Assembly (NCBI GenBank): GCA_023264995.1
Contig: JAHFUR010000007.1
Span: 62,001 to 126,000 of the forward strand
Direction of reading: 5' to 3'
Source: Acidimicrobiia bacterium
GTDB taxonomy: Bacteria > Actinomycetota > Acidimicrobiia > Acidimicrobiales > AC-14
DNA: 64,000 nucleotides
Below the pieces are notes generated by a model. It was not told where the DNA came from. It worked only from the letters and a program-made list of their open reading frames with translations, and did no database searches. The translations under genes were made by a program, and so were the position numbers. Every line of letters begins with the position of its first letter. The stretch's first letter is position 1. Positions 15,907 to 37,419 of the stretch are shown in pieces.

Positions 15907-15976
15907 ACCCTCGGCCGAGCCGGTTGCATGTAGGGCACACACCGTCACAATGAACCCGTAGATCAGGAGGGGAACC

Positions 15977-20763: not shown

Positions 20764-23700
20764 GTGGACGACCGGTTTGAACTGCTCGTCGTAGCCGTCG
20801 ACCGTTTCGCGGAGCTCCCCGAACTGCCGTCGACCATCACCGCCCAGCGACTGTGCGACATGCTCGTTCCCTATGGAGCCGAGCGGCGTCCTGGCCCGAG
20901 GACGAAGACGGCGAACGGCGTGCGCAGGCACCTCGACGCCTGGTCGCGGTCCGAGGTCGGGCCGACATCGACGGTGGTCTACTGGGTGGGCCACGGGCAG
21001 TCCGACGGCGCTGAGCAATGGCTGTTGGCCAGCGACAGCAAGCCGCAGTACACGCCCGCCAACGCCTTGCCCGCCGCTGAGCTGGCCCGCTACCTGTCCT
21101 CTCGATGGGCCAACCGTGTCGCCGGCGACCCCGACGCGTGGACCCTGATCGTGCTCGACTCCTGCAACCCCTTCGTCGGGGGCCTGAACGTCCTCAACGC
21201 CCTGAGCGCCCGACCGGAGGGCATGCCGGACCGGTTCGCCATCCTGCCGGTCGCGTCCGGTGCCAGCACGGTGGGCCTGTTCGTCGATGCGCTCCATGCC
21301 GCTCTCAACGCGAGGTCCGTGTACGACGACCGCATCCTGCTGCGTTCGTTGCTCGAAGAGGTCGGCAGCCGGTTGGGCCACGGTGCCAGGCCGATCAACT
21401 TCTTGTCCTATGACGCGTCGATCCTGAACCCGGCGCGCGGCGCGGCAACCGCGGCCGTGAGCGCGGAGAAACTCGAGGAATGGCGTGATGTTGTCGGCGG
21501 TCTCGACCCGGATCTACGGGCCCACTTCCTGGACAAGACGGGGCCGGCGCAGGTGGAGGATGCGGCATGGATGCTCGCCGGCCGCCAGGAGGAGCCCGGC
21601 CGTATCGCCGCCTGGCTTCGCAATGAGCGAAGGGGTCTCTTCGTCGTGACGGGGGAGCCAGGCGCCGGAAAGTCGGCGCTGCTCGGTCACGTCGCCACTT
21701 TGGCCGACCAGCGAGTCGCCGCCGCGCTCGCACACAGCGACCTGTTGGCTCACCGGCCCGCCGATGAACGACCGCCGCCGGGTGTGTTCGACCTCGTGCT
21801 CCACCTGACCGGCAAGACGCTGGGCGAGGTCGTGTCGCGGGTCGCCGAGCTGGTGCCCGGTCGGGCGGGTATCGGCCCCGTCGTCGACGGTCTGCGGACC
21901 TCGGGCCGGTCCTGGACCATCCTGGCCGACGCCCTCGACGAGGCCCAGGAGCCCGTGGTCATCGCCCGCGAGCTCCTGCGCCCGCTGTCCGAACTGCCGT
22001 CCGTGCGGGTCGTCCTCGGCACCCGGCGGTCAATGGGGGAGGGAGCCGACCTGCCGGAGCCGCCCTCCCACGAGCTGCTCGACGCGCTGGGTGTCGGCAT
22101 CGCCGACTGCCTGTTCCTGACCAGGGAACCGCCGGCCATGGCCGACTACGCCCGCCGGCGCTTGGGGCCGACTCGGGTACCCGCCGCGATCGTGGACGAC
22201 GTGGCGTTCCGGGTGGCCGACGTCGACCAACCCTTCCTGTTTGCCCGGCTGGCGGCCGACGAGGTGCTGGCCCGCACGGGCGCCGGCGACGAGCCTGAGC
22301 TTGACCGGCTGTTCAGCGGCGACCACCGCCAGGTGTTCGCCATGGCGCTCGAGCGCCTGGGACGGTCGTCGTCGGTCGTGGTCGCCCTGTTGCGAGCACT
22401 GGCGTACGGCCTGGGACGAGGTGTACCGCGGGCCGATGGTGTGTGGGCGACCATCGCCGCCGCCATCGAGCCGGCGGCCACGGTCACCGAGGCCCAGATC
22501 GACGAAACGCTCAGGGTCGCGGCTGCGTACGTCACCCTCGACGGCGAGGGCGGGCAGAGCGTCTACCGCCTCTCGCACAAGACCTTCGCGGCGCACTTCC
22601 ATGCCCAGGACGACCTCGCCGCGCACGCTCGGATCGCCGCCGCCCTGCGCAGGGCCGCCGACGCGGCGGGCGGGTGGCACGTGGCCAACCCGTACCTCCT
22701 GCTCCACCTTCTGGAGCACGCCCGGTCCGACGCCATGGAGCTCGATGCCCTCTGCACCGATCCCGGGTTCCTGCAGGAAACGTTGCGCCGGCTCGGTGCC
22801 GACGGTCTAGTCGAGAACTTGGTGGTGGTAAAGGGGGCGGCCGGCACCGCAGCCCCGGCCGTCGCCGGCGCGGTGCGCCGGGCCCGGGTGGCGCTGACCC
22901 ACCAACCCGACCAGTTGGCCAGCCAGCTACAGGCGCGCCTGCACGCCGAGACCGACCCGTCAGTGGTGCACCTCTTGGACCGCCTTCCGGAGATCGCCCC
23001 GCCGGTGTGGCTGCGGTCGCTGACCTCGCACCTCACGTGGACGGGTGACCTCGAGGCCAATCAGGACTTCCCGGGCAAGGTGCGTGCGTTGGCCTTCGGC
23101 GCGGTCGACGGTGTCGCCGTGCTGGCGGTCGGCGTGGAGCGGTCGGTGCACCTCTGGGATCCCCTGGCGGGAGGCACCGACCAGCGGACGGTCGGGAACG
23201 GCACCGACCGCATCATCGCTGTCGGGCTGGGGGCACGCGCCGGCCGGCCGGTGATGGTCATGAGCTCGTACGAGGGCACCGTCGCGCTGCGCGATATCCG
23301 GACGGGCGAGCCGTTGCTCCAGCTCACCGGGGTAGGCACCCTCACGTCGGTGTGCCTGGGCTCGGTCGCCGGCCGGGAGGTGATCGCCGGCGCCAACGGC
23401 CCCGTCGTGTGGTGGTGGGACGCCGCGTCCGGGGATCTTCTCGGTCAGCGCGACCTGGGTGGGGGGTTCCAAACCATGGCGCTGGCGCCGACGGCCGGCG
23501 GGATCGTCGCCGGCGCCGTCAATGCCGGCAACGTGTACGTCGCGCCGCTGGAGGGCACCGACATGGGGCGGCCGTGGGCCTGCCCGCTGGGCTGGCCGCT
23601 CCGGGCGCTGTCGGTCGCGGAGGTGGACGGACGCATCGTCGTGGCCGCCGGCGACATCGACCAGCGGGTGGGGTGCTGGGAATTCTCCGGGGAGACGGCG

Positions 23701-24687
23701 GCAGCCGTCGCACCGATGGGGGTGGTGGTCGTCGACTTCCCGGTACGGACGGTGGCGGTCGCGGCCGTTGACGGCAGGGTGGTCGTGGCCGCCGGCAACG
23801 ACGCGTGGGACAGCCCCGGCGAGATCTACGGGCGCGTCGCGCTACGGGACCCGCAGCGACCCCACGGGGTGGCGACGCAGTGGCCGTCCCGGCCGGTGGC
23901 GATCAACCGGACGGAACGGGGCCTGGTGGCCCTGTGCGAGGGCCCGCCGCTGCGTCTGCTGGGCGTCCCCGATGGCGACCTCGTCACTGGCGACCCGACG
24001 GCCGCCGATGTGGCGGGGGTGCTCACCGCCGGCCGCTACCCCGGACTGAACTTCGTCGACCAGTCCCCGGACGGGGACCGCCTCCGCCCGGGTACCCCAG
24101 CCAGATCAGGGCGACGGTCGCCTCGGCGCACGACGTTCCGGCGAGCCGACCCGGCATCGTGGCCGGTCACCGCCGACGCGTACGGGACGCTCGCCGGCCG
24201 GCCGGTGCGGGCCACCGGCACCCTCTTCGGTGGGTCCTGGGTGTGGGATCTCGACTGGGGCCGCGTGGTGGCCGGTCCGTTCGCCCGGCTACCGGAGACG
24301 GTCCCGCTGGTGCTGGCCATGGGCAAGCCCGGGGTCCCCGCGGTGCGCAGCATGAGCCTCTGCACGACGGGTGAGCGGACGCTGCTCGGTACGGTCCATG
24401 ACGGGGCGGCCCACGTCTGGGACGTCGCCACCGGCCGGGAGGTGGAGATCGCCGCCGAGGGGAAGTGGAGCGCCATCGCCCTCGGCGAGGTCGGCGACCA
24501 GGTCATCCTGGCGCTGGGCAGCGACGCCGGGACCCTCCGGCTGTGGGGCGTGCAGCCGGGGGCGGGCGCACCGATGGCCAGTATGACCACCGACAGCCGG
24601 GTCAGGGAGTTGTGGCTGGTCCACGGCGAGGCGACGCTCGCGGCGATGACGTACTCGAACGAGCTACTTCTTTTCGACTTCTCCTGA
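20764..24687 (+). CDS. Caspase-like protease / P-loop (NACHT-type STAND) NTPase / beta-propeller protein
   Basis: A 1307-aa multidomain protein. Residues about 1-220 are a caspase-like (peptidase C14) domain with His77 in VVYWVGHGQ and Cys134 in LIVLDSCNP, both catalytic positions present. A STAND/NACHT-type ATPase follows: P-loop GEPGAGKS (297-304), Walker B WTILADALDEA (384-394), then VRVVLGTRR and a winged-helix-like helical region to about 770. Residues about 785-1307 are WD40-like repeats, degenerate but regular (VHLWDPLAG, VALRDIRTGEPL, VWWWDAASGD, AHVWDVATGRE, LRLWGVQPG). The plan is that of signal-triggered protease switches known from filamentous and multicellular bacteria: propeller senses, NTPase oligomerises, caspase executes. 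Targets are unknown. Confidence 0.85.
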   Translation: MDDRFELLVVAVDRFAELPELPSTITAQRLCDMLVPYGAERRPGPRTKTANGVRRHLDAWSRSEVGPTSTVVYWVGHGQSDGAEQWLLASDSKPQYTPANALPAAELARYLSSRWANRVAGDPDAWTLIVLDSCNPFVGGLNVLNALSARPEGMPDRFAILPVASGASTVGLFVDALHAALNARSVYDDRILLRSLLEEVGSRLGHGARPINFLSYDASILNPARGAATAAVSAEKLEEWRDVVGGLDPDLRAHFLDKTGPAQVEDAAWMLAGRQEEPGRIAAWLRNERRGLFVVTGEPGAGKSALLGHVATLADQRVAAALAHSDLLAHRPADERPPPGVFDLVLHLTGKTLGEVVSRVAELVPGRAGIGPVVDGLRTSGRSWTILADALDEAQEPVVIARELLRPLSELPSVRVVLGTRRSMGEGADLPEPPSHELLDALGVGIADCLFLTREPPAMADYARRRLGPTRVPAAIVDDVAFRVADVDQPFLFARLAADEVLARTGAGDEPELDRLFSGDHRQVFAMALERLGRSSSVVVALLRALAYGLGRGVPRADGVWATIAAAIEPAATVTEAQIDETLRVAAAYVTLDGEGGQSVYRLSHKTFAAHFHAQDDLAAHARIAAALRRAADAAGGWHVANPYLLLHLLEHARSDAMELDALCTDPGFLQETLRRLGADGLVENLVVVKGAAGTAAPAVAGAVRRARVALTHQPDQLASQLQARLHAETDPSVVHLLDRLPEIAPPVWLRSLTSHLTWTGDLEANQDFPGKVRALAFGAVDGVAVLAVGVERSVHLWDPLAGGTDQRTVGNGTDRIIAVGLGARAGRPVMVMSSYEGTVALRDIRTGEPLLQLTGVGTLTSVCLGSVAGREVIAGANGPVVWWWDAASGDLLGQRDLGGGFQTMALAPTAGGIVAGAVNAGNVYVAPLEGTDMGRPWACPLGWPLRALSVAEVDGRIVVAAGDIDQRVGCWEFSGETAAAVAPMGVVVVDFPVRTVAVAAVDGRVVVAAGNDAWDSPGEIYGRVALRDPQRPHGVATQWPSRPVAINRTERGLVALCEGPPLRLLGVPDGDLVTGDPTAADVAGVLTAGRYPGLNFVDQSPDGDRLRPGTPARSGRRSPRRTTFRRADPASWPVTADAYGTLAGRPVRATGTLFGGSWVWDLDWGRVVAGPFARLPETVPLVLAMGKPGVPAVRSMSLCTTGERTLLGTVHDGAAHVWDVATGREVEIAAEGKWSAIALGEVGDQVILALGSDAGTLRLWGVQPGAGAPMASMTTDSRVRELWLVHGEATLAAMTYSNELLLFDFS

Positions 24688-24701: not shown

Positions 24702-25238
24702 CTACCCCGCGGTCTTCTTGGCCGCGGGGCGCTTGGCCGGCGCCGCGGTGGTCGGGGCAACGGCCTTGCGTGCCCGCTTGGCGGGGGCCTGGGCCTGGGG
24801 CTGGGCCGAGGCCTTGCTCGCCCGCTTGGCGGGCGCCGCCGGCGCGGCCTTGGCGGCCCGTTTGGCCGCTGCTGGCGGGGCGGCCGGCGCCTTCACGGCC
24901 CGCTTGGCCGGCGCGGCGGCGGAGGCCTTGGTGGCTCGCTTGACCGCAGCCGGAGGCTTCTCCGGTACCGGTTCGGCCGGGCGCGGCCGGAGGATCTGGC
25001 TGACAGGGCGTGGGCCGACATCCCGAGCGGGCTGGGCTCGGACTGGGGGCGGCGGCGGGATCTCGGCGGGCCGCCGGGTGGCCAGCTCCTGGTTGATCTC
25101 GCCCATGCGTGATGCCAGACCTCGCCACTCCTCGTCCGGCGGTCGGCCCCGGTTGACTGCGGCGTCGATGGCCTGTTTGGCCTGGGCCTCGGCCTCTGCC
25201 TGTGAGTAGTGAGGCTCACGTCCGAAATACCGTCCCAC
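24702..25238 (-). CDS. Histone H1-like Lys/Ala/Pro-rich basic protein
   Basis: A 178-aa protein with a mixed N-terminal part (MGRYFGREPHYSQAEAEAQA, then WRGLASRMGEINQELA) and from residue about 90 a low-complexity tail of PAKRA/AAKRA repeats typical of bacterial H1-like DNA-binding tails. Nonspecific DNA or RNA binding is the usual role of such tails. The GTG start has AAAGG about 9 nt upstream. It converges on the caspase-like gene. A second, weaker Lys/Thr/Ala-rich frame is at 38288-38875. Confidence 0.7.
   Translation of the reverse strand: MGRYFGREPHYSQAEAEAQAKQAIDAAVNRGRPPDEEWRGLASRMGEINQELATRRPAEIPPPPPVRAQPARDVGPRPVSQILRPRPAEPVPEKPPAAVKRATKASAAAPAKRAVKAPAAPPAAAKRAAKAAPAAPAKRASKASAQPQAQAPAKRARKAVAPTTAAPAKRPAAKKTAG
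24705..24729 (+). terminator. Stem-loop downstream of the caspase-like gene
   Basis: CCCCGCGG (24705-24712) pairs with CCGCGGGG (24722-24729) around a 9-nt loop, starting 17 nt after the caspase-like stop and inside the 3' end of the convergent H1-like gene. Candidate terminator for the plus strand; no T tract. Confidence 0.4.
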
Positions 25239-25473: not shown

Positions 25474-27354
25474 CTACTCCAAAGTGCAGCCGCAGGAGTT
25501 GATCTCCCGGGTGATGATGCCCCGCCCGGTGTCCATGTGGGTGGTGCAGGGCATGCAGGGGTCGAAGCTGCGGATGGCCCGCAGCACGTCGATGCCCTTG
25601 ATCTGGTCGTCGGGGACCGACTCCAGGATGGGGGTGTCGACGATGGCCTGCTCGTAGGGGCCGAGGCCACCGAAGGGGTCGGTGGGAGATGCGTTGAGGG
25701 TGGAGGGCGTGTTGATCTGGTAGTTCACGATCTTGCCCTTGTCCATGACCATGTGGTGGGTCAGGTAGCCGCGGCTGGCCTCCCAGAAGCCCACCGCCAC
25801 CCGCTCGTCCATGGGGATCTTGAACGGCGTGTGGACCCGCGTCTCGCCCTGGCGCCAGTACTCGAAGGCCTTGAGCAGGCAGTTCATGCCGATGGTTGCG
25901 GTGAACGCCATGCCGTACGCCCGACCCCGGAGCCGCTCCAGGGCGTTGAGGGTCCGCGGCACCGGCCAGAACAGCTCGGTCTCCGGCAGCTGGTGGCGGG
26001 GCAGCAGCATGCGCAGCCCGTCACCGGTTGATTCGCAGAAGGGGTTCTGGGTGTAGTCGCCCCGCAGGGCGGTGCCCCACAGTTGGCCGTAGGTGCCGGT
26101 CTCGACGACCTGGCGGTCCCAGCGGGGCGCCGTCGACCAGGTGTACTTGTCCTTGAAGGAGGTCCCGGTGGGCTTGGGCAGGGTGGTCTTGTTCCACGCG
26201 TGGTACGGCGAAAGAGGGTTGCCGAGCGCGTCGGCCTGGTAGCGCTGAGGTCCGGTCTTCGTCCAGTCCTCGTAGAAGGAGTGCTCGATGAACTCCTCCA
26301 CCCCCATGTTGATGTCCGTGAGCTTGGTGGTGATGAGCTTGCCCTCGATGATGACGGCGGGGCTGGCCCACCGGGCGTCGCCCCACACGTTCACGTTGGC
26401 GTAGGTGGCGTCGTAGATCTCGGAGTTGTCCCAGATGCCGGTCTGGATGAGGCTGCTCGGCCGGGCACCGACCTGCTCGTAGGCCGGGTTGGCCTCGAGG
26501 AAGAAGTCACACAAGTCGTCCATCACGCGGCAGAGCACCTTGGAGTAGTCGATGATCTGGGCGAGGTGGGAGTAGTACTCGTTGAACGTCGACGTGGTGA
26601 CCGTGGTTGACATGCCGCCCGGCACGATGGTCGAGGGGTGGGGGAACTTCCCGTACATCAGCATGCAGAGGATGCGGCCCACCCTGGTCCACTCCAGCGC
26701 CTCCAGGTAGATCTTGCCCGTGAGCGGGTTGAGCGCGTCCATGAGATCCTTCATGGTCGTGTAGCCGTGGACGTCGCCGTGGGGGGCCAGCGTCTTCTCG
26801 GCCCGCGTCACCAGCTCCGGGTTCGTCACCGAGACCAGCGCGGTGGAGTAGTCGGGGGCGGCGAGGAGGCAGAGGGTGAGGGGGCGGTCGTAGAACATCT
26901 CACCGACCTCGCCCAGGTTGCGGACCTCGACGCCGAGCGGCGGGGGGCAGATCCCGAAGGCCTGCTCCAGGCACAGGGCGCTCACGGTGGCGTGGACGCC
27001 GCCGCACACGCCGCAGGCGCGGGATGAAATGTCGATGGCGTCACGTGGGTCGCGGCCTTCGAGGATGACTTCATAACCCCGGAAGAGCATGGCCCGGGAG
27101 TGGGCATCGACGGCCCGCCGGCTTTCCAGGTCGAGCACGGTGTGCACGGCCAGGGCCCCGGCCACGCGGGTCATGGGGTCGATGTTCCAGTCCCGCAGGC
27201 GGGGCGGGGCGGCCAGTTGTGCCCCGGGGCCGGCCTTGCGGCGCACGTAGCCCCTCGGCTCGGCCACCGTGACGGAGTACGGGTCGGCGAGGCCCTTCTT
27301 GAGCTGGGCCTGACCGGCGGCGTCGAACTCGATGGGCAGGTTCCTGAAACACAT
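25474..27354 (-). CDS. hhyL: [NiFe] hydrogenase large subunit, group 1h (high-affinity, actinobacterial) type
   Basis: A 626-aa hydrogenase large subunit. The L1 motif RACGVCGGVH supplies Cys114 and Cys117 with His121; the L2 motif DPCMPCTTH supplies Cys600 and Cys603 with His606, so all four Ni-Fe ligands are present. A 20-residue tail follows His606, as expected for the peptide removed by the maturation protease. The type resembles the oxygen-tolerant enzymes that oxidise atmospheric H2. The ATG at 27354 has AGGAGG at 8-nt spacing. No small subunit, hyp maturation gene or endopeptidase is within the window, which is unusual because hhyS normally precedes hhyL directly. The group assignment is from memory. 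Confidence 0.85.
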   Translation of the reverse strand: MCFRNLPIEFDAAGQAQLKKGLADPYSVTVAEPRGYVRRKAGPGAQLAAPPRLRDWNIDPMTRVAGALAVHTVLDLESRRAVDAHSRAMLFRGYEVILEGRDPRDAIDISSRACGVCGGVHATVSALCLEQAFGICPPPLGVEVRNLGEVGEMFYDRPLTLCLLAAPDYSTALVSVTNPELVTRAEKTLAPHGDVHGYTTMKDLMDALNPLTGKIYLEALEWTRVGRILCMLMYGKFPHPSTIVPGGMSTTVTTSTFNEYYSHLAQIIDYSKVLCRVMDDLCDFFLEANPAYEQVGARPSSLIQTGIWDNSEIYDATYANVNVWGDARWASPAVIIEGKLITTKLTDINMGVEEFIEHSFYEDWTKTGPQRYQADALGNPLSPYHAWNKTTLPKPTGTSFKDKYTWSTAPRWDRQVVETGTYGQLWGTALRGDYTQNPFCESTGDGLRMLLPRHQLPETELFWPVPRTLNALERLRGRAYGMAFTATIGMNCLLKAFEYWRQGETRVHTPFKIPMDERVAVGFWEASRGYLTHHMVMDKGKIVNYQINTPSTLNASPTDPFGGLGPYEQAIVDTPILESVPDDQIKGIDVLRAIRSFDPCMPCTTHMDTGRGIITREINSCGCTLE

Positions 27355-27431: not shown

Positions 27432-27443
27432 CAATGATCATTG
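27432..27443. promoter_or_regulatory. 12-bp palindromic operator candidate between hydrogenase and GlxA-like regulator
   Basis: CAATGATCATTG is a perfect 12-bp palindrome, AT-rich in a GC-rich genome, placed in the 124-bp divergent gap, 36 bp before the regulator's ATG and 78 bp before the hydrogenase ATG. It is a candidate binding site for the adjacent regulator or for a metal or oxygen sensor. Confidence 0.4.
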
Positions 27444-27478: not shown

Positions 27479-28441
27479 ATGCGCCACCGTGTCGTTGCTG
27501 TCGCCCTGCCCGGTCTGGTCACCTTCGACCTCGCCTGCGCCGTGCAGGTGTTCGCTCCTGAGGCCGCGCCCCCGGACCGCCGGCAGCACTACGACTTCGC
27601 CGTCTGCGGGCCGACCCGCCGGATCGTCACGAACGACGGTTTCGACCTGGTCGTCGCCCATGGGCTGGACGCGGTCGCCAGCGCCGACACCGTGGTCGTG
27701 CCGGGCTACCTCGGCGACTGGACGGTCCCGCCGTCCCCTCGGGTGCTGCGGTCGCTCGCCGCGGCGGCCGACCGTGGTGCGCGGATGATGTCGATCTGCG
27801 TCGGGGCGTTCGCGCTCGGGCACGCCGGGCTGCTCGACGGGCACCGCGCCACCACGCACTGGGTCGCCACGCAGACCCTCGCCGACCTGTTCCCGCGCGT
27901 AGAGGTGGTGCAGGACGTCCTCTACGTCGACGATGGTCAGGTGCTGACGTCGGCGGGCCTGGCCGGCGGTCTGGACCTCTCGCTCCATGTGGTCCGTGCC
28001 GACTGCGGTGCGGCGGCGTCGGCGGAGTTGGCCAGGTACAACGTCGTCCCGCCCCACCGCGATGGCGGGCAAGCGCAGTTCATCCCCACCGGGGTCATGT
28101 CACGCGGCACCGGCGACGAGCTGGCAGCAACCTGCGAGTGGGCGTTGCAGCACCTCGATCTGGCCCTGAGCCTGGCTGATCTCGCGGCACATGCTCGGTT
28201 GAGCACGCGGACGCTCATCCGGCGGTTCGAGACCGAGCTGGGCACCAGCCCGAAACAGTGGCTCCTCCAGGCCCGTCTACGGCGCGGGCGCGAGCTGCTC
28301 GAGGCCACCGACCTGCCGGTGGAGCACGTCGCAGCACGGGCCGGGTTCCCAAGCGCGGGCGCCTTTCGCTCTCAGTTCCGCTCCAGCCTGATGACCACGC
28401 CGAGCGACTACCGCCGGGCCTTCCGGCTCCGTGACGACTGA
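27479..28441 (+). CDS. GlxA-family regulator (DJ-1/PfpI + AraC HTH)
   Basis: A 320-aa regulator: a DJ-1-like domain (HRVVAVALPGLVTFDLACAVQVF; elbow Cys in MMSICVGAFALGHAGLLDG) and a C-terminal AraC HTH pair (SLADLAAHARLSTRTLIRRFETELGTSPKQWL, then RAGFPSAGAFRSQFRSSLMTTPSDYRR). The ATG at 27479 removes 18 residues of the open frame; CAGGAG precedes it closely. It is divergent from the hydrogenase gene, with a palindrome between, so it may control it. Confidence 0.85.
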   Translation: MRHRVVAVALPGLVTFDLACAVQVFAPEAAPPDRRQHYDFAVCGPTRRIVTNDGFDLVVAHGLDAVASADTVVVPGYLGDWTVPPSPRVLRSLAAAADRGARMMSICVGAFALGHAGLLDGHRATTHWVATQTLADLFPRVEVVQDVLYVDDGQVLTSAGLAGGLDLSLHVVRADCGAAASAELARYNVVPPHRDGGQAQFIPTGVMSRGTGDELAATCEWALQHLDLALSLADLAAHARLSTRTLIRRFETELGTSPKQWLLQARLRRGRELLEATDLPVEHVAARAGFPSAGAFRSQFRSSLMTTPSDYRRAFRLRDD

Positions 28442-30383: not shown

Positions 30384-33374
30384 TCAGGCGGGCACTTCCT
30401 CCGACGGCGGCGGGCGGTCGGGCACCATGAAACGCCCGACGATCGGTAGCTCCCAGAACGACTCGGCCTTGGCCACGGCGAGGGCGCCGGCGAGGATGTC
30501 CTGGGGCGACTCGTACACCGCATAGCGGGGCTTCCACTCCGGGTTGAACTTGGCGTTGTACTTCCACAGCGAGTCGATCTGCATGGTGTCCGACATGCGG
30601 TTCAGCAGCCACCGCTCGACCCGTTGCGTGGGCCCGGACCCCATCTCGCCGGCCAGGACCGCCCGCATGGTGGCGAAGTTCAGGGCCAGCCCCCGCATCC
30701 CCCGCCCGGCCAGGTGCCGGATGGTCTCGACCACGACGAAGTCCAGCAGGCCGTTGGGGTGCTCGGCCTTGCTGCGCCGCATGAGGTCCAGCGAGTACCC
30801 GTTGATCCCCGTCGCCGGCACCCACTGGCAGAAGGCCGCCGGTTCTCCCTCCGGCCCGAAGCAGACGGTGAGGAGCAGGTGACGGTCGGCCGGGTCGAAG
30901 ATGCGGCTGAGGGTCATGGAGAAGCCGCGCTCGACATCGCCCCGCCGGCTCTCCGACATCAGCTTCTGGAGGGACGCCCGCAGCTCGGGTTGCAGGTGGG
31001 CCGGGTCGAAGAACTCCACCCGGTACCCGTAGCGGGCGATGCGGTTGACGGCCTGGCGGAGCCCCTTGGCCTTTCCGCCTTCCAGGTTGAAGCGGGTGCA
31101 GTCGACGATGGCCTCGTCGCCGACGTAGAGGTCACGCATCCCCGCGGCCCGGTAGATCGGGAGCCACTCCTCCGACGCCCCCATGACCGTCACCGTCCAC
31201 CCCCGCTCGGCGGCGAACTGGTGGAAGGCGGCCCATGTGGCCGACCGCTCGGCGACCGGACCGATGGGGTCGGGAGAAACCAGGCACACCTCGCCCATCA
31301 CCGCGTAGGCCACCATGCTGTCGGCCCAGAAGTACACCTGCTTGTCGTCGCGGAGGGCGAAGTAGGCCAGGCTGTCGCCGCCGTAGCGCTCGACCACGTC
31401 GCGGGCCCGAGCCCGATCGGCGATGTCGGTGTGGCGGCGGGGGACCGCCGGCCGGAACACCAGCCAGCCGGCGACGAGGATCGTCCCGAAACCGACGGCG
31501 GCCAGGACCGGCGTCAGGAAGTCGTCGAGGCGGTCGGGCAGGGCGATCGTGGTCACCCAGACGAGCCGCTCGGCGGCGGCAGCAGCAGCCCGGGCCAGGG
31601 GTAGGCGGGGTTCGCCGCCGGAGAAGACCTCGATGGCGACTGTACCGATGGCCGTGGCAACGGCGGCGACCGAGCCCAGGACGCGCAAGGTGGTGCCGAC
31701 GGCCCGCTCCGCCGGCGGGGCACGGAACGCCTGGCGCCGGGCCCACAGGTAGGCAGAGGCGGCGAGGGCGATCCCTGCCTCCTCCACGTCGACGCCCTTG
31801 AGCACATGGAGCACGGCCGAGCCGAGCAGCAGGCCGAGGGCGACGGCCCACGCCCGCCGGCCGCCGCGGCTCACGCCTCGGGCCAGGAGGAGGAGGGCGA
31901 TGCCGGCCAAAGCGGCCAGGGCGGCGGCCGCTCTCGGGACCCCGAACGGCAGCGCCGCGCGGAGCGTGTGGAGCCGCCCGGCGAACGGTGGGGTCAGCGC
32001 CGACGCCAGGTCGACCAGCCCGACGACGGCAATGCCGACAGCCGCTCGTGTCCGGGTACGGCGAAGGCGGGCGGCCTCGTTCTCGATCGCCGGCCACGAC
32101 ACGCCGTCGGGGAACGTGGCGACGACCGCCGGCGGCCCGTCGGGGGTCGTGGGGCGGCGGGCGGCCAGGCGCTCGAGGCGGGAGGCGCCGGGTAGCTCGG
32201 TGCGGCCGTAGACCAGGCGGGCATGGACGTCGGCCGCCGCTTCGAGCTCCAGCCACGACATGGTGCGCGACGCGAGGAACACCGGCGGGAACCCGGCGTG
32301 GGACGGCCGCTCGTCGACCACCGACATGGCACAGCCCGTGTTGGCGTAGAAGCCGTCGAGCATGGGGGTGAGCTCGGGGTGGTGGGTGTGGCCCGTGACC
32401 AACCCGGCCAGGCCGGCGCCGATGAGCCGGCGGGCTTCGGCGCGCGGCCCCTCGTTCTGGCCTCGGCCGCGGCGCTGGGCGGTCGTCACCGCTACGGCCT
32501 CCCATGCCTGGCGGGCGGCAGCCAGCACGGCCGCCACCACCAGGACCAGGTCGGCGACGAGCGCGATCCCGAGGACGGCCAGGCGGTGCTCCCAGGTCGA
32601 CACCTTCGGCTGGGAGAGCAGAACGACGGTCAGGGGCAGCTTGAGGGCCAGTGCGACCAGGAGCGGCAACGCCAGCCACTTCACATGCTTGGTCAGGCGC
32701 CGGTAGGCCAGGCGGGAGGCCACGAACGACGGGAAGGCCACCGGGTCGTCGAGCGTCTCCATGCCGGCGAGCCACGGGCGATCGGCCATGTGCAGGGCGG
32801 GGAGGACCTCGCGCACGATGTGGTGGCCGAGCGGGGCGTCGAGGGGGTTGCGGGGGTCGGTGAAGGTGTTGGCCGGGTCGAAGTTGTTGCCGTGCTCCAC
32901 CCGGACCCGGCGCGGGCCGGCGGCGGTCTCGAGGACCAGCTCGGCGGCGAAGGCCAACTGTGCCTGCATGGACTCGGCCACGAGGTGGGCCGCCTCGGCG
33001 TCCCAACCCAGCCGGTTGTCGTGGTTGCCGATCAGGTAGACCACCGAGCGCTCCGGCCCGCCGGCGAAGGTGCGCAGCGCGGTGACCAGGCGGTGATGAT
33101 CGGCCAGTATCTCGGCCGGGTCGGGGTCCCCGCCGGCGAGGAGCTCGAGGATGTCGCCCGCCAGCACGACCGCACCCGGCCCGTCCCACGCTTTGATGGC
33201 GCCGACCACCTCGTCGACGGCGTCGCGCTCGGCCTGCGACGGTCGGGCGGTGAGGTGGAGGTCGCTGGCGACCAGGACGCGGGCGCCGGCCGGCACGGCC
33301 ACCTCGACCAGGTCGGGGATGTCCGGAGCCGGTCCCGGAGTGGTCACCCCTCCATCGTGACCCAGGTCGGGCAC
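30384..33374 (-). CDS. Fusion of metallophosphoesterase, membrane helices and MprF-like DUF2156 domain
   Basis: A 996-aa membrane protein. Residues about 30-340 are a calcineurin-like phosphoesterase with ASDLH (Asp38, His40), LAGD (Asp74), GNHD (Asn117, His118) and GHTH (328-331), interrupted by a two-helix membrane insertion at about 232-290. Helices follow at about 445-545, 562-582 and 620-640. Residues about 650-985 are the C-terminal domain of phosphatidylglycerol lysyltransferases (DUF2156), with YGGDSLAYFALRDDKQVYF, YRAAGMRDLYVGDEAIVD and FNPEWKPRYAVYE. MprF-type proteins aminoacylate lipid head groups. The GTG start directly follows the TAG of the upstream DinB gene, last in a coupled operon begun by EF-G2. 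Confidence 0.82.
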   Translation of the reverse strand: MPDLGHDGGVTTPGPAPDIPDLVEVAVPAGARVLVASDLHLTARPSQAERDAVDEVVGAIKAWDGPGAVVLAGDILELLAGGDPDPAEILADHHRLVTALRTFAGGPERSVVYLIGNHDNRLGWDAEAAHLVAESMQAQLAFAAELVLETAAGPRRVRVEHGNNFDPANTFTDPRNPLDAPLGHHIVREVLPALHMADRPWLAGMETLDDPVAFPSFVASRLAYRRLTKHVKWLALPLLVALALKLPLTVVLLSQPKVSTWEHRLAVLGIALVADLVLVVAAVLAAARQAWEAVAVTTAQRRGRGQNEGPRAEARRLIGAGLAGLVTGHTHHPELTPMLDGFYANTGCAMSVVDERPSHAGFPPVFLASRTMSWLELEAAADVHARLVYGRTELPGASRLERLAARRPTTPDGPPAVVATFPDGVSWPAIENEAARLRRTRTRAAVGIAVVGLVDLASALTPPFAGRLHTLRAALPFGVPRAAAALAALAGIALLLLARGVSRGGRRAWAVALGLLLGSAVLHVLKGVDVEEAGIALAASAYLWARRQAFRAPPAERAVGTTLRVLGSVAAVATAIGTVAIEVFSGGEPRLPLARAAAAAAERLVWVTTIALPDRLDDFLTPVLAAVGFGTILVAGWLVFRPAVPRRHTDIADRARARDVVERYGGDSLAYFALRDDKQVYFWADSMVAYAVMGEVCLVSPDPIGPVAERSATWAAFHQFAAERGWTVTVMGASEEWLPIYRAAGMRDLYVGDEAIVDCTRFNLEGGKAKGLRQAVNRIARYGYRVEFFDPAHLQPELRASLQKLMSESRRGDVERGFSMTLSRIFDPADRHLLLTVCFGPEGEPAAFCQWVPATGINGYSLDLMRRSKAEHPNGLLDFVVVETIRHLAGRGMRGLALNFATMRAVLAGEMGSGPTQRVERWLLNRMSDTMQIDSLWKYNAKFNPEWKPRYAVYESPQDILAGALAVAKAESFWELPIVGRFMVPDRPPPSEEVPA

Positions 33375-33923: not shown

Positions 33924-34465
33924 GTCGCCGCCTTCCGCTGTTCGCGGACGGCCCGCATGCCGCGACCGATGTCGAGCAGGTGATGGTTGCCTTCGTGGAC
34001 GGCTCGCCGGGCGTGCAGCCGCACCGACCGTTCCTCGCCCCGGCGCAGGCCGACGCGGTCCCAGCCGTCGGCCGGCACCTCTTCAACTGTCGCCGCCAGC
34101 CGGTCGGCATTGGCGGCGAGCGCCTCGGCGACTGCAGCCGGGTCCTCGGCGTTGTACCCGCGCTCGACGGCCAGCTCGACCGGCCCGAGCCCCTCGAGCG
34201 TCGGCCGGTCCTGGGCCAGGATTGCCCGCACCCAGCGGTCGTAGGAACCGAACACGTCACGCACGTGGGCGGCGTACTCCAGGGCTGACCACGTGTCGGG
34301 GGCCGGTCGTTGGCGGACCAGGGCATCACCGTCTTCGCCCGGGAGGAACCGGCTCAAGGGAGCCCGGTACCGCTTGGCGAACGACCGGATGGCCGCCGGC
34401 GCGTCGGCCGGGTCGAGGGCCTCGTAGTCGAAGCCGCATTCACCGCAGGGCGGCTCAGGGGTCAT
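33920..34465 (-). CDS. DinB-like protein with N-terminal CxxC motif
   Basis: A 181-aa DinB-superfamily helical protein. It opens with PCGECGFDYEAL (CxxC), has TWSALEYAAHVRDVFGSYDRWV with the first likely metal His, and VHEGNHHLLDIGRGM with the other two. DinB-fold proteins bind a divalent metal and often use low-molecular-weight thiols. The ATG overlaps the EF-G2 stop (ATGA), so it is coupled to that gene. Its paralogue is immediately downstream. Confidence 0.8.
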   Translation of the reverse strand: MTPEPPCGECGFDYEALDPADAPAAIRSFAKRYRAPLSRFLPGEDGDALVRQRPAPDTWSALEYAAHVRDVFGSYDRWVRAILAQDRPTLEGLGPVELAVERGYNAEDPAAVAEALAANADRLAATVEEVPADGWDRVGLRRGEERSVRLHARRAVHEGNHHLLDIGRGMRAVREQRKAAT

Positions 34466-36528
34466 TCGGCGGTGGCCTTGGCCACCTTGTCGACCAGGTG
34501 GGCGGGCAGCACGTCGTAATGGTCGTGGCGGACGCTGAACCGCCCCCGTCCGCCGGTGAGCGACCGGAGGTCGATGGCGTAGCGGAGGATCTCCGACGTC
34601 GGGACCAGGGCGGTGACCATCTGCTCGCCCAGGCCCGCCACCTCGGTGCCCTGCACCCGGCCCCGGCGGGAGTTCAGGTCGCCCATCACGTCGCCCTGGT
34701 AGGCGATGGGGACGGTGACCTCCAGCACCGAGATGGGCTCCAGCAGGACGGGCCCGGCCTTGGCCATGGCGTCCTTGAAGCCCAGGGAACCGGCCATCTT
34801 GAAGCTCATTTCCGAGGAGTCGACCGGGTGGAACTTGCCGTCGAAGACGGTGACCCGCACGTCGACCACGGGGTAGCCGAACACGCCGGCGGTGGCCATG
34901 GTCTCCATCACGCCCTTCTCGACCGCGGGGATGAACTGGCGGGGGATGGCCCCGCCCACGATCTTGTCGACGAACTCGAACCCGCCGCCGCGGTCCATCG
35001 GCTCCACCTTCAGGAAGGCCACGCCGAACTGGCCGTGCCCACCGGTCTGCTTCTTGTACTTGCCCTCGGCATCGGCCGAGGTGGTGATGGTCTCCCGGTA
35101 GGCCACCTTCACGTCGTCGGTCAGGACCTCGACGCCGAACTTGCGGAGGAGGCGCTCGGTGACGATGGACAGGTGGGTGTCCCCCATGCCCGAGAGGAGG
35201 GTCTGGTGGGTCTCGTCGTCCCGGCGGACGTGCAGGGTCTGGTCCTCGTCCTGGAGCCGGTGCAGCGACGTCATGAGCTTGTCCTCGTCGCCCTTGGACT
35301 TCGGCCGGATGGCCACGGTGAGGACCGGGGTGAGGGGCTCGGGTGGGGTGACGACCACAGGCGTGCCCTTCGGCGCCAGCGTGTCGCCGGTGAGGGTGTC
35401 CGACAGCTTGGCGACCGCGCCGATGTCGCCGGCCGGCAGCTCGCTCAGGGGGTCCTGCTCCTTACCCCGCATGGTGAAGAGGTTGTGCAGCTTCTCGTCG
35501 GCGTGGGTGCGCGGGTTGGTCAGCGTCGTGTCCGGACGGATGGTGCCGGAAAGGACCTTCAGGAACGACACCTTGCCCACGTAGGCGTCGGCCACGGTGC
35601 GGTAGACGAGGGCCAGCGGCTGGCCGGAGGGGTCGGGGGCGACCTCGGTGGCGCCGCCGGGCGCTTCCACCCTGACTGGCGGGCGATCGAGTGGCGACGG
35701 GCCGACCTCGACGATGAACTGGGCCAGCCGGTCGATGCCGATCAGCTTGGTGGCCGACCCGCAGGCCACGGGGAAGACGCTGGCCGCAGCGACGCCTCGG
35801 GCCAGCGTGTCCTCGAGCTCCTTGGGGGTGATGCTGTCACCGTCGAGGTAGCGCATCATCAGGTCGTCGTCGGCGACGACGATGCCCTCGACCAGGTGGT
35901 CGCGGACCTCGTGCTCCCGCGCGGCCATGTCCTCGGGGATCTCGGCGATGGTGGGCGTGGCCCCTGCCCCGGCGTAGAGGACGGCGGTGTCGGTGAGCAG
36001 GTCGGCGATGCCTCGGAAGCCGGCTTCCTCGCCGATCGGCAGCTCGAGCGGGGCGACGCCGGCGCCGAAGCGCTCCTGGAGCTGGGCGAGGGTGCGGTCG
36101 AAGCTGGCTCGCTCCCGGTCGAGCTTGTTGACGAAGAACATGCGGGGGAGGCCGAGCTCCGACGCGAGCCGCCAGGCCGCCTCTGTCTGGACCTCGACAC
36201 CCTCGACGGCGCTCACGACCAGGACGGCCAGGTCGGCGACCCGCAGGGCGGTGTGCATGTCGCCCACGAAGTCGGCGTACCCGGGGGCGTCGAGCAGGTT
36301 GATCTTGAACCCGTCGTGCTCGAAGGGCGCCAGCGAGAGGGACAGGGACAGGTGCCGCCGTACCTCTTCGGGATCGAAGTCGGTGGTGGTCGTGCCGTCC
36401 TCAACCCGTCCCATGCGGCTGATGGCGCCGGCGCAGAACAGGAGGGCTTCGGCCAGGCTGGTCTTGCCGGCGCCCCCGTGCCCGACGAGGGCCACGTTGC
36501 GGATCTTGGCGGGAGGGAAGCTCTTCAC
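34462..36528 (-). CDS. Elongation factor G-like GTPase, EF-G2 type
   Basis: A 688-aa translational GTPase of the actinobacterial second EF-G class. G1 is GHGGAGKT (16-23), G3 is DAPG (80-83) and G4 NKLD (134-137). Domains II-V follow, with the EF-G domain IV/V signatures GHGQFGVAFLKVEP and VTVFDGKFHPVDSSEMSFK. The canonical His after G3 (DTPGH) is Tyr here (DAPGYADF), and the switch I RGITI is absent, as in EF-G2 proteins rather than the housekeeping FusA. GAGG lies 5-6 nt before the GTG at 36528; the open frame farther upstream is not coding. First gene of an operon with two DinB genes and the phosphoesterase-DUF2156 fusion. Confidence 0.88.
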   Translation of the reverse strand: MKSFPPAKIRNVALVGHGGAGKTSLAEALLFCAGAISRMGRVEDGTTTTDFDPEEVRRHLSLSLSLAPFEHDGFKINLLDAPGYADFVGDMHTALRVADLAVLVVSAVEGVEVQTEAAWRLASELGLPRMFFVNKLDRERASFDRTLAQLQERFGAGVAPLELPIGEEAGFRGIADLLTDTAVLYAGAGATPTIAEIPEDMAAREHEVRDHLVEGIVVADDDLMMRYLDGDSITPKELEDTLARGVAAASVFPVACGSATKLIGIDRLAQFIVEVGPSPLDRPPVRVEAPGGATEVAPDPSGQPLALVYRTVADAYVGKVSFLKVLSGTIRPDTTLTNPRTHADEKLHNLFTMRGKEQDPLSELPAGDIGAVAKLSDTLTGDTLAPKGTPVVVTPPEPLTPVLTVAIRPKSKGDEDKLMTSLHRLQDEDQTLHVRRDDETHQTLLSGMGDTHLSIVTERLLRKFGVEVLTDDVKVAYRETITTSADAEGKYKKQTGGHGQFGVAFLKVEPMDRGGGFEFVDKIVGGAIPRQFIPAVEKGVMETMATAGVFGYPVVDVRVTVFDGKFHPVDSSEMSFKMAGSLGFKDAMAKAGPVLLEPISVLEVTVPIAYQGDVMGDLNSRRGRVQGTEVAGLGEQMVTALVPTSEILRYAIDLRSLTGGRGRFSVRHDHYDVLPAHLVDKVAKATAE

Positions 36529-36648
36529 GGGCGCCTCGCTGCTTCGTCGGCGGGGAGCCGCCGGTCCGGTCTGAAGGTGAGAAGAGTGACAGCCTACCGG
36601 GCCGCCCTGGTAGCCTCTATAGGCGGAATCGGTTTTCTGGAGGAGTCC

Positions 36649-37419
36649 ATGTTCGACAAGAGGTGCCGAGCGGGCGTCGAGCGGAGCCTGCGGCCGGTAG
36701 GCACGGGCCTCAAGCGGGCGGGGATCACCGCGGACCAGTTGACCGTCCTCGGTCTGGTCCTCTCCGCGGCGTGCGCGTTCGCCGTCGCCGAGGGCTGGCT
36801 GTTTGTCGGCTGGTGCCTGCTGGCCGCCTCGGCGGTGCCCGATGTCCTCGACGGGGCGGTGGCCAAGGCCTCCGGCACGTCGTCGCCACGGGGTGCGTTC
36901 TTCGACTCTGTGGTGGACCGCGTCAGCGACACGCTCGTCCTCGGTGGGCTGGCCTGGTACCTGGCCGACACCCGTAGCCCGCACACCGCGCTGCTGCCGC
37001 TGGCCATCCTGGGCGCGTCCAACCTGGTCTCCTACGAGCGGGCCCGGGCCGAATCGCTCGGGTTCACCGCTCGGGGCGGGCTGATGGAACGGGCCGAACG
37101 GATGATCGCCATCGGCCTGGGCCTGCTGTTCAGCATGGTCATGATCCCGCTGCTGTGGCTCATGCTGGGCCTGACCACCCTCACCGCCGTCCAACGCTTC
37201 CTCATGGTCTGGCGCCAGGCCAGCGCCGCCGTCCCCGGCCGGCGGCCCGCCGGCGAGCGGCCGGCCGCACGCTGGTCGGCCCGGCGTCCCTCGGTCGGTT
37301 TCGGCGAGGGCGAGGGCCCCCGGCTCCGGAGCCAGCGTGGCGATTCGAGCACCTGGCGGGCCCGGCGGGCGTCTCAGTCGCGGCCCGCCACGTGGCGGCG
37401 GGCCCGCACCCGGCCGTAG
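36649..37419 (+). CDS. CDP-alcohol phosphatidyltransferase (phosphatidylinositol-type synthase)
   Basis: A 256-aa membrane enzyme with about six helices. The CDP-alcohol signature D-x2-DG-x2-A(R/K)-x8-G-x3-D-x3-D is present as DVLDGAVAK, then GAFFDSVVDR, with Lys in place of the usual Arg. It transfers a phosphatidyl group from CDP-diacylglycerol to an alcohol. The following acyltransferase gene matches the mycobacterial pgsA1-patA order, which points to phosphatidylinositol (phosphate) synthesis. The ATG has GGAGGAG upstream (36639-36645). The last about 60 residues are Arg-rich and probably disordered. Confidence 0.82.
   Translation: MFDKRCRAGVERSLRPVGTGLKRAGITADQLTVLGLVLSAACAFAVAEGWLFVGWCLLAASAVPDVLDGAVAKASGTSSPRGAFFDSVVDRVSDTLVLGGLAWYLADTRSPHTALLPLAILGASNLVSYERARAESLGFTARGGLMERAERMIAIGLGLLFSMVMIPLLWLMLGLTTLTAVQRFLMVWRQASAAVPGRRPAGERPAARWSARRPSVGFGEGEGPRLRSQRGDSSTWRARRASQSRPATWRRARTRP

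Follow-up and report, generated by a model that had tools for sequence, protein, structure and literature searches.

[NiFe]-hydrogenases are treated as obligate pairs of a large subunit (LS) and a small subunit (SS). The window, the whole 64,000-nucleotide stretch of DNA analyzed here (positions 62001-126000 of contig C81, in a genome of 3.82 Mb, 81 contigs and 98% completeness), contains an LS gene without the adjoining SS gene of a complete enzyme, which raises the question of what such a solo LS does and with which partner, if any, it works. The gene lies at 25474..27354 on the minus strand and encodes 626 amino acids. Its match to PF00374 (213 bits, cut-off 25.8) and its two CxxC motifs place the product in the LS family; among solved structures, the group 1h HofG of C. 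necator matches it best (5aa5_C, 482 bits, residues 41-606). Together with an alignment of four paralogs and a tree, these matches suggest an LS of a group-1m-like lineage. The N-terminal Ni-Fe cysteines C114 and C117 (RACGVCGGVH; 27004..27015, minus strand) are invariant in the four paralogs of this genome and present in all 11 full-length solo copies described below; the C-terminal cysteines C600 and C603 (DPCMPCTTH; 25546..25557, minus strand) are likewise found in the four-paralog alignment and in 11/11 solo copies. A tail of 20 residues, presumably the substrate of a maturation protease, follows H606 (25477..25536, minus strand); the alignment with 5aa5_C ends at the equivalent histidine, and the tail is kept in 11/11 solo copies. 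The four cysteines and the cleavable tail noticed in the first-pass annotation are thus all intact, and the gene appears to encode a functional-looking LS.

The surroundings of the gene offer no partner. A tblastn search of the 64-kb window with 24 query proteins, whose targets were recovered by the same queries in three control loci, gave no match at 1e-3 for any of them, which included SS of both types, HypA-F, a CooC-type ATPase, cytochrome b, NifU, a protease and a TPR protein, in agreement with the earlier statement that no SS or hyp gene lies nearby. A divergent gene at 27479..28441 (plus strand) encodes a regulator with DJ-1/PfpI and AraC-type HTH domains according to Pfam, and has no counterpart beside other solo LS copies. 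The downstream neighbor (24702..25238, minus strand) encodes 178 amino acids with a C-terminal part rich in Lys, Ala and Pro and has no Pfam match. Between the LS gene and the divergent AraC/DJ-1 gene, we observed a 12-bp palindrome, CAATGATCATTG, at 27432-27443, a possible operator. Two genes from the LS, at 20764-24687 (plus strand), is a gene for a 1307-residue protein with an NTPase and a WD40-type propeller; it was found in 0/5 relatives in a synteny search meant to date the insertion of the window LS. Two other unusual proteins are encoded in the window: a 996-residue protein that joins a calcineurin-like phosphoesterase to the C-terminal domain of a lysyl-phosphatidylglycerol synthase (30384-33374, minus strand), and a 910-residue EF-G-like protein whose GTPase domain begins only at residue 230 (34462-37194, minus strand).

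Elsewhere in the genome, the window protein has eight matches, itself included. Three are further full-length copies, two on contig C52 (C52a and C52b) and one on C53, 86-89% identical to the window protein; all four copies are 626 residues long, with pairwise protein identities of 85.6-95.0%. The edges of contigs C5 and C20 each carry a C-terminal LS end of 39 residues that does not differ from the window protein. A diverged LS, 39-45% identical to the window protein, is present as one piece on C16 and another on C45. The broken edges of C16 and C45 have 36 identical residues in common. The C16 piece has 76-79% identity with HofG and with a mycobacterial LS and is adjoined by an SS gene, and a DUF5947 gene is found on C45; the two pieces belong to one true group 1h locus. 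A profile search for PF01058 in the genome returned only this SS and two genes on C25, which we take to be complex I NuoB. As a side observation, the genes preceding the group 1h LS in NC_005241.1 (59962-61017) and NZ_CP012886.2 (383683-384738) are annotated as HypE and are 67-85% identical to the 1h SS of this genome, which makes a mis-annotation probable.

At its very edge, C15 encodes the N-terminal 102 residues of another SS, 85% identical to the SS of a relative used as the query; this contig also carries a PadR-type regulator, a CooC-like (CbiA-family) ATPase and the only HypD of the genome. C5 starts with the last 39 LS residues, followed by a protease-like protein, NifU, a HycI protease, a TPR protein and further genes. 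Relatives carry these parts as one cluster, in the order hyp genes, ATPase, SS, LS, protease-like protein, NifU, an unknown protein, HycI and TPR, so this genome has one complete cluster of the group-1m-like high-affinity uptake hydrogenase, split by the assembly over C15 and C5, with the window gene as a separate solo copy. The first-pass suggestion that the partner is elsewhere therefore holds at the genome level, with the SS N-terminus and HypD on C15 and the rest of the cluster on C5. The copy at the edge of C20 is followed by a luciferase-like gene, not by the protease-like gene found behind the paired LS, and has a neighborhood in common with a contig of a relative (G002:C7); it is also a solo copy, the fifth in a genome that holds at least five. 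DNA homology among the copies of this genome ends at the gene ends, except for a 38-bp stretch just downstream that is common to the window copy and C53.

Our preferred reading, to which we assign a probability of roughly one half, is that the solo LS are alternative large subunits that pair in trans with the single SS. The shared Hyp machinery would supply the Ni-Fe cofactor, the shared HycI-type protease would clip the tail, and the matured LS would then join the SS encoded in the complete cluster. The need for at least five extra LS per one SS is unexplained by trans pairing and counts against it.

Before such a role is considered, the lone position of the window copy could be an artifact in which the assembly lost an SS next to it, and this assembly does break at LS copies, as at the edges of C5, C15 and C20. 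The window copy, however, is flanked immediately to its left and right by unrelated genes within a long contig. It has only 84-87% DNA identity to the other full-length copies of the genome, and its longest exact stretch, with C5 and C20, is 110 nt, which makes a mis-join unlikely. Solo copies also recur in independent assemblies, and we consider an artifact highly improbable.

A scan of genome contigs for the LS lineage gave 18 loci, all from Actinomycetota MAGs. An SS adjoins the LS in 13 of them (L032, L033, L035-L045), and no SS is found beside the LS in the other five (L029, L030, L031, L034 and L046, the last cut after 65 residues); the source MAGs of these five also hold an SS-paired copy among the 18 loci in 3/3 cases. 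Genomes with any LS match, group 1h included, number 8/10 in the family of the window and 46/298 in a sample of its order. Full-length solo copies were also read in G008:C1, G111:C12, G111:C152 and G074:C82 (the same as L034), giving 11 full-length solo LS in six genomes: four in this genome, one in G002, two in G003, one in G008, two in G111 and one in G074. More candidates are cut by contig edges (C20 of this genome, G002:C7, G002:C113, which is L046, G003:C28 and G008:C63). Solo LS recur in five related genomes and are not confined to this one; the window gene, first described as an orphan, is accordingly not a one-off. The literature that we searched, largely at a level below full text and including passages of PMC10305171, PMC9886862, PMC7677003 and PMC9561532, contained no report of such solo LS. 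Also noticed was a second LS lineage (L097, L101, L103, L104, L107, L108 and L109), 50-55% identical to the window protein and mostly accompanied by its own SS; together with L040 it forms a separate clade (98/97) that may represent an unnamed hydrogenase group.

The first-pass annotation had called the LS group-1h-type. In the tree, the window LS falls outside the group 1h clade of seven rows (100/100), and the true 1h LS of the genome is the one split between C16 and C45. Group 1h (hhySL; C. necator HofG, PDB 5aa5; Mycobacterium) is the nearest labelled relative and resembles the lineage in its SS/LS order and its NifU and protease genes. We rejected this assignment for the lineage of the window because of its separate clade, the identity of only 39-42% to 1h, and the absence from its complete cluster of the DUF5947 and DUF6084 genes expected after NifU in group 1h, both of which occur in labelled 1h loci and the former also on C45. 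Group 1l (hylSL), in which SS and LS are separated by five short transmembrane proteins according to the consulted parts of PMC9561532, was rejected as well, since SS and LS are adjacent in the complete clusters with no membrane-protein genes between them.

The lineage is a sister of group 1h. Judged by gene content, its complete cluster corresponds to the published group 1m (hhmSL), which is the probable assignment. As far as the accessible account of group 1m goes (PMC9561532), the likeness comprises adjacent SS and LS genes, a HybD/HycI-type peptidase, NifU-like, CooC-like ATPase and TPR proteins, a restriction to Actinomycetota, which holds for our 18 loci, and 5AA5 as the best solved relative. 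Adjacent SS and LS genes are present in the complete clusters L032, L033 and L035-L045 and lacking at the window copy; likewise, the accessory genes belong to the complete cluster of this genome (HycI, NifU and TPR on C5, the CbiA-family ATPase on C15) and not to the window copy. The same account lists two small single-helix membrane proteins of 82-92 amino acids, a BirA homolog and a DUF1059 gene. Small proteins with a hydrophobic stretch, judged by sequence, are encoded on C5 (82 and 104 amino acids) and in L032 (82 and 96 amino acids), a match in length that is not exact, and BirA and DUF1059 were absent among the cluster proteins scanned, which were part of the cluster genes. The window copy and its sister solo copies differ from group 1m in having neither SS nor cluster, and solo copies are not mentioned in the consulted parts of the group 1m account.

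The sequences of the solo copies show that they are old and under purifying selection. Among the seven solo copies of the genus, dN/dS was 0.11-0.23 at dS of 0.27-0.59 in 21 pairs; four pairs with L037, where equal lengths hid unaligned indels, were ignored, and other paired-LS pairs, which were compared by position only, were left out. A second complete hhySL locus, which according to the first-pass annotation could make the window gene a recent duplicate, does exist in the genome; the copies, however, are several and not recent, with dS of 0.27-0.53 among the four full-length ones. An alignment of 13 full-length SS-paired LS has 294 invariant columns. Of these, 1-10 are changed in each of the 11 solo copies, and 0-19 in the SS-paired LS themselves, left out one at a time. 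No cofactor cysteine is lost in any of the 11. With paired-LS-invariant residues almost completely retained and every cysteine in place, we see no sign that contact with the SS or catalysis was given up. The window copy and the G008 copy carry 10 deviations each, jointly the most among solo copies, and for the window copy this number is a point against trans pairing.

The four-fold sites and the tree in turn suggest that solo and paired copies exchange sequence. In a tree of 28 LS, from which the long-branched L040 and L043 were dropped together with L044 (the same locus as L110), each solo copy groups with an SS-paired copy from the same genome or genus: G111:C12 is sister to the paired G111:C90 (100/98), and G008:C1 to the paired G008:C5 (100/100). 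A divergent gene for an HTH-cupin protein is nonetheless orthologous in the solo loci of G111, G008 and the genus of the window (59-77% identical), so its linkage to the LS is old. A constraint that unites the six HTH-cupin-linked LS in a single clade, a group named after the tree had been seen, cost 424 log-likelihood units and was rejected (p-AU 1e-71). Grouping by genome and not by neighborhood suggests that the solo copies evolve in concert with the paired LS. DNA identity between solo and paired copies is 91% both in G111 and in G008, and 80-81% to C52a of this genome, with blocks ranging from 75 to 100%; a rare LNPC C-terminus is common to the solo and paired copies of G008. The 3' end of the window copy includes 110 nt (25484..25593, minus strand) identical to the ends of the SS-paired copy on C5 and of the C20 copy, a likely conversion tract judging from these sequences and from the four-fold sites, which are 84% identical among the four own copies in the last 42 columns and 67% elsewhere, and show no such rise in SS-paired LS across the order (44% vs 47%).

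We read these patterns as probable recurrent gene conversion with the paired LS, strongest in G008 and G111, with repeated fresh duplication into the same site as the weaker alternative. Under trans pairing, such concerted evolution would keep the LS copies compatible with their shared partners. A run-length permutation test within the genus gave only weak conversion signals, mostly between copies from different genomes, and this weakness speaks against trans pairing. The signs of conversion, both those in G008 and G111 and the one at the 3' end, would also suit a further explanation, in which the duplications are a by-product kept by frequent recombination, as conversion donors or for gene dosage, and have no separate role. 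LS copies indeed seem to be rearrangement points, as the L030 solo LS has the upstream neighbor of C52a and the downstream neighbors of C53. The low dN/dS over considerable dS, a GC3 that reaches the very high value of 0.947 in the window gene, and the conservation of neighbors across genera do not favor a mere by-product, which we regard as unlikely.

If solo LS pair in trans with the SS, the result would be alternative isoforms under different promoters. Of 15 complete loci examined, 12 have the motif TGTAGNN[CT]ACA ahead of the SS gene. The sequence GTAGTNTACA has two sites in the whole 3.8-Mb genome: one lies 34 bp ahead of the C15 SS gene, the other about 45 bp ahead of solo C52b. It is notable that both sites are in hydrogenase promoters, a point in favor of trans pairing; the motif was picked after the promoters had been seen and a reversed control pattern also has two sites, which weakens the case for trans pairing. 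No promoter element common to all solo copies was found in 150 bp upstream of 12 copies, and among these regions only that of C52b carries the TGTAGNNTACA operator. The HTH-cupin-linked promoters have a different inverted repeat, seen by eye. Scanning the window for the operator gave a single match at 15929-15939, away from the LS, and the window copy, which has none of the operators or conserved partners found at other solo copies, is in this respect also evidence against trans pairing.

The conserved neighbors of some solo copies suggest a signaling job instead, which is a further argument against trans pairing. The HTH-cupin gene is divergent beside six solo LS (C52a, L029, L030, L031, G111:C12 and G008:C1). 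Its product (L020:9504-10676, plus strand) combines a KaiC-like domain, apparently without a P-loop, with an HTH and a cupin domain, and a Foldseek comparison of the AlphaFold model (pLDDT 73) gave its N-terminus a KaiC/RecA-like fold. Directly after four LS (C52a, L031, G008:C1 and the cut LS of G003:C28) is a gene fusing a HycI-like domain to a SpoIIE-type phosphatase; such fusions were located at L020:6032-7498 (minus strand), L031:10435-11877, L112:3583-4962 (minus strand) and L124:3801-5159 (minus strand). In three of the four cases (C52a, L031 and G003:C28), the LS stop and the fusion start overlap as ATGA, and the N-terminal domain of the fusion is 52% identical to the protein directly after the LS in the complete cluster. 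The full module of HTH-cupin gene, divergent LS and fusion occurs at C52a, L031 and G008:C1. Among 298 genomes of the order, at least four full-length fusions were found, each immediately behind an LS of the lineage of the window that is solo or at a contig edge; the other matches listed in this search were generic SpoIIE domains, the protease-like gene in its stand-alone form and one remnant behind the solo LS of G002. The HTH-cupin family is wider, with members in 13/298 genomes of the order, most of the further ones without an adjoining LS.

These modules would fit a sensor that works without an SS, in which a matured solo LS binds H2, or reports the nickel or redox state, and signals to a dedicated regulator, most clearly in the HTH-cupin/LS/fusion module. 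Two sigma-70 genes following C52b, and an upstream ArsR-type regulator and downstream STAS-domain and LuxR-type genes at G074:C82, are in line with this idea. Such regulator neighbors beyond the module are, however, not clearly above chance, and C53, C20 and G111:C152, like the window copy, have no such partner. The residues invariant in paired LS are not relaxed in the LS of the modules either. The second aspartate of the PP2C-type motif appears to be Asn in the fusion of this genome, which may consequently be catalytically dead, and looks replaced (Asn or Lys) in three of the four fusions; the AlphaFold model of the fusion, built from four sequences, is poor (pLDDT 52). For the solo copies as a whole, we hold the sensor to be doubtful. 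Slightly more doubtful is the fuller proposal that actinobacteria of this order took SS-free LS as H2 or nickel receptors, read by the HycI-like/SpoIIE fusion through sigma-factor partner switching and by the KaiC-like/HTH/cupin regulator, with gene conversion matching the receptor to the enzyme. For the copies linked to HTH-cupin or SpoIIE genes, the sensor and trans pairing come close to even; for the window copy, which lacks a conserved partner, trans pairing is the likelier of the two.

Pairing in trans with the single SS thus remains our preferred account of the window gene. Were solo LS to take turns on one common SS, a high-affinity hydrogenase would be tuned in a new way; if they are sensors, they would represent an SS-free H2 receptor. 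Surveys that infer atmospheric H2 oxidation from LS counts would over-count genomes of this kind, since this one holds at least seven LS genes vs one SS of each of two types. Among known systems, the nearest analogue of the sensor would be HoxBC, the regulatory hydrogenase and H2 sensor of C. necator, which serves in signaling. Unlike the solo LS, HoxBC has an SS, its LS is only 24% identical, and its adjoining gene encodes an ATP-binding protein, which we take to be the HoxJ kinase, in place of the phosphatase fusion and HTH-cupin protein found here. The closest precedent for an LS acting alone, and a point in favor of a sensor, is provided by isolated HoxC and HoxG, termed a "minimal hydrogenase": according to the consulted passages of PMC9886862, the LS can by itself hold an intact, redox-active site, in those cases as a laboratory preparation and not as the product of a natural solo gene.
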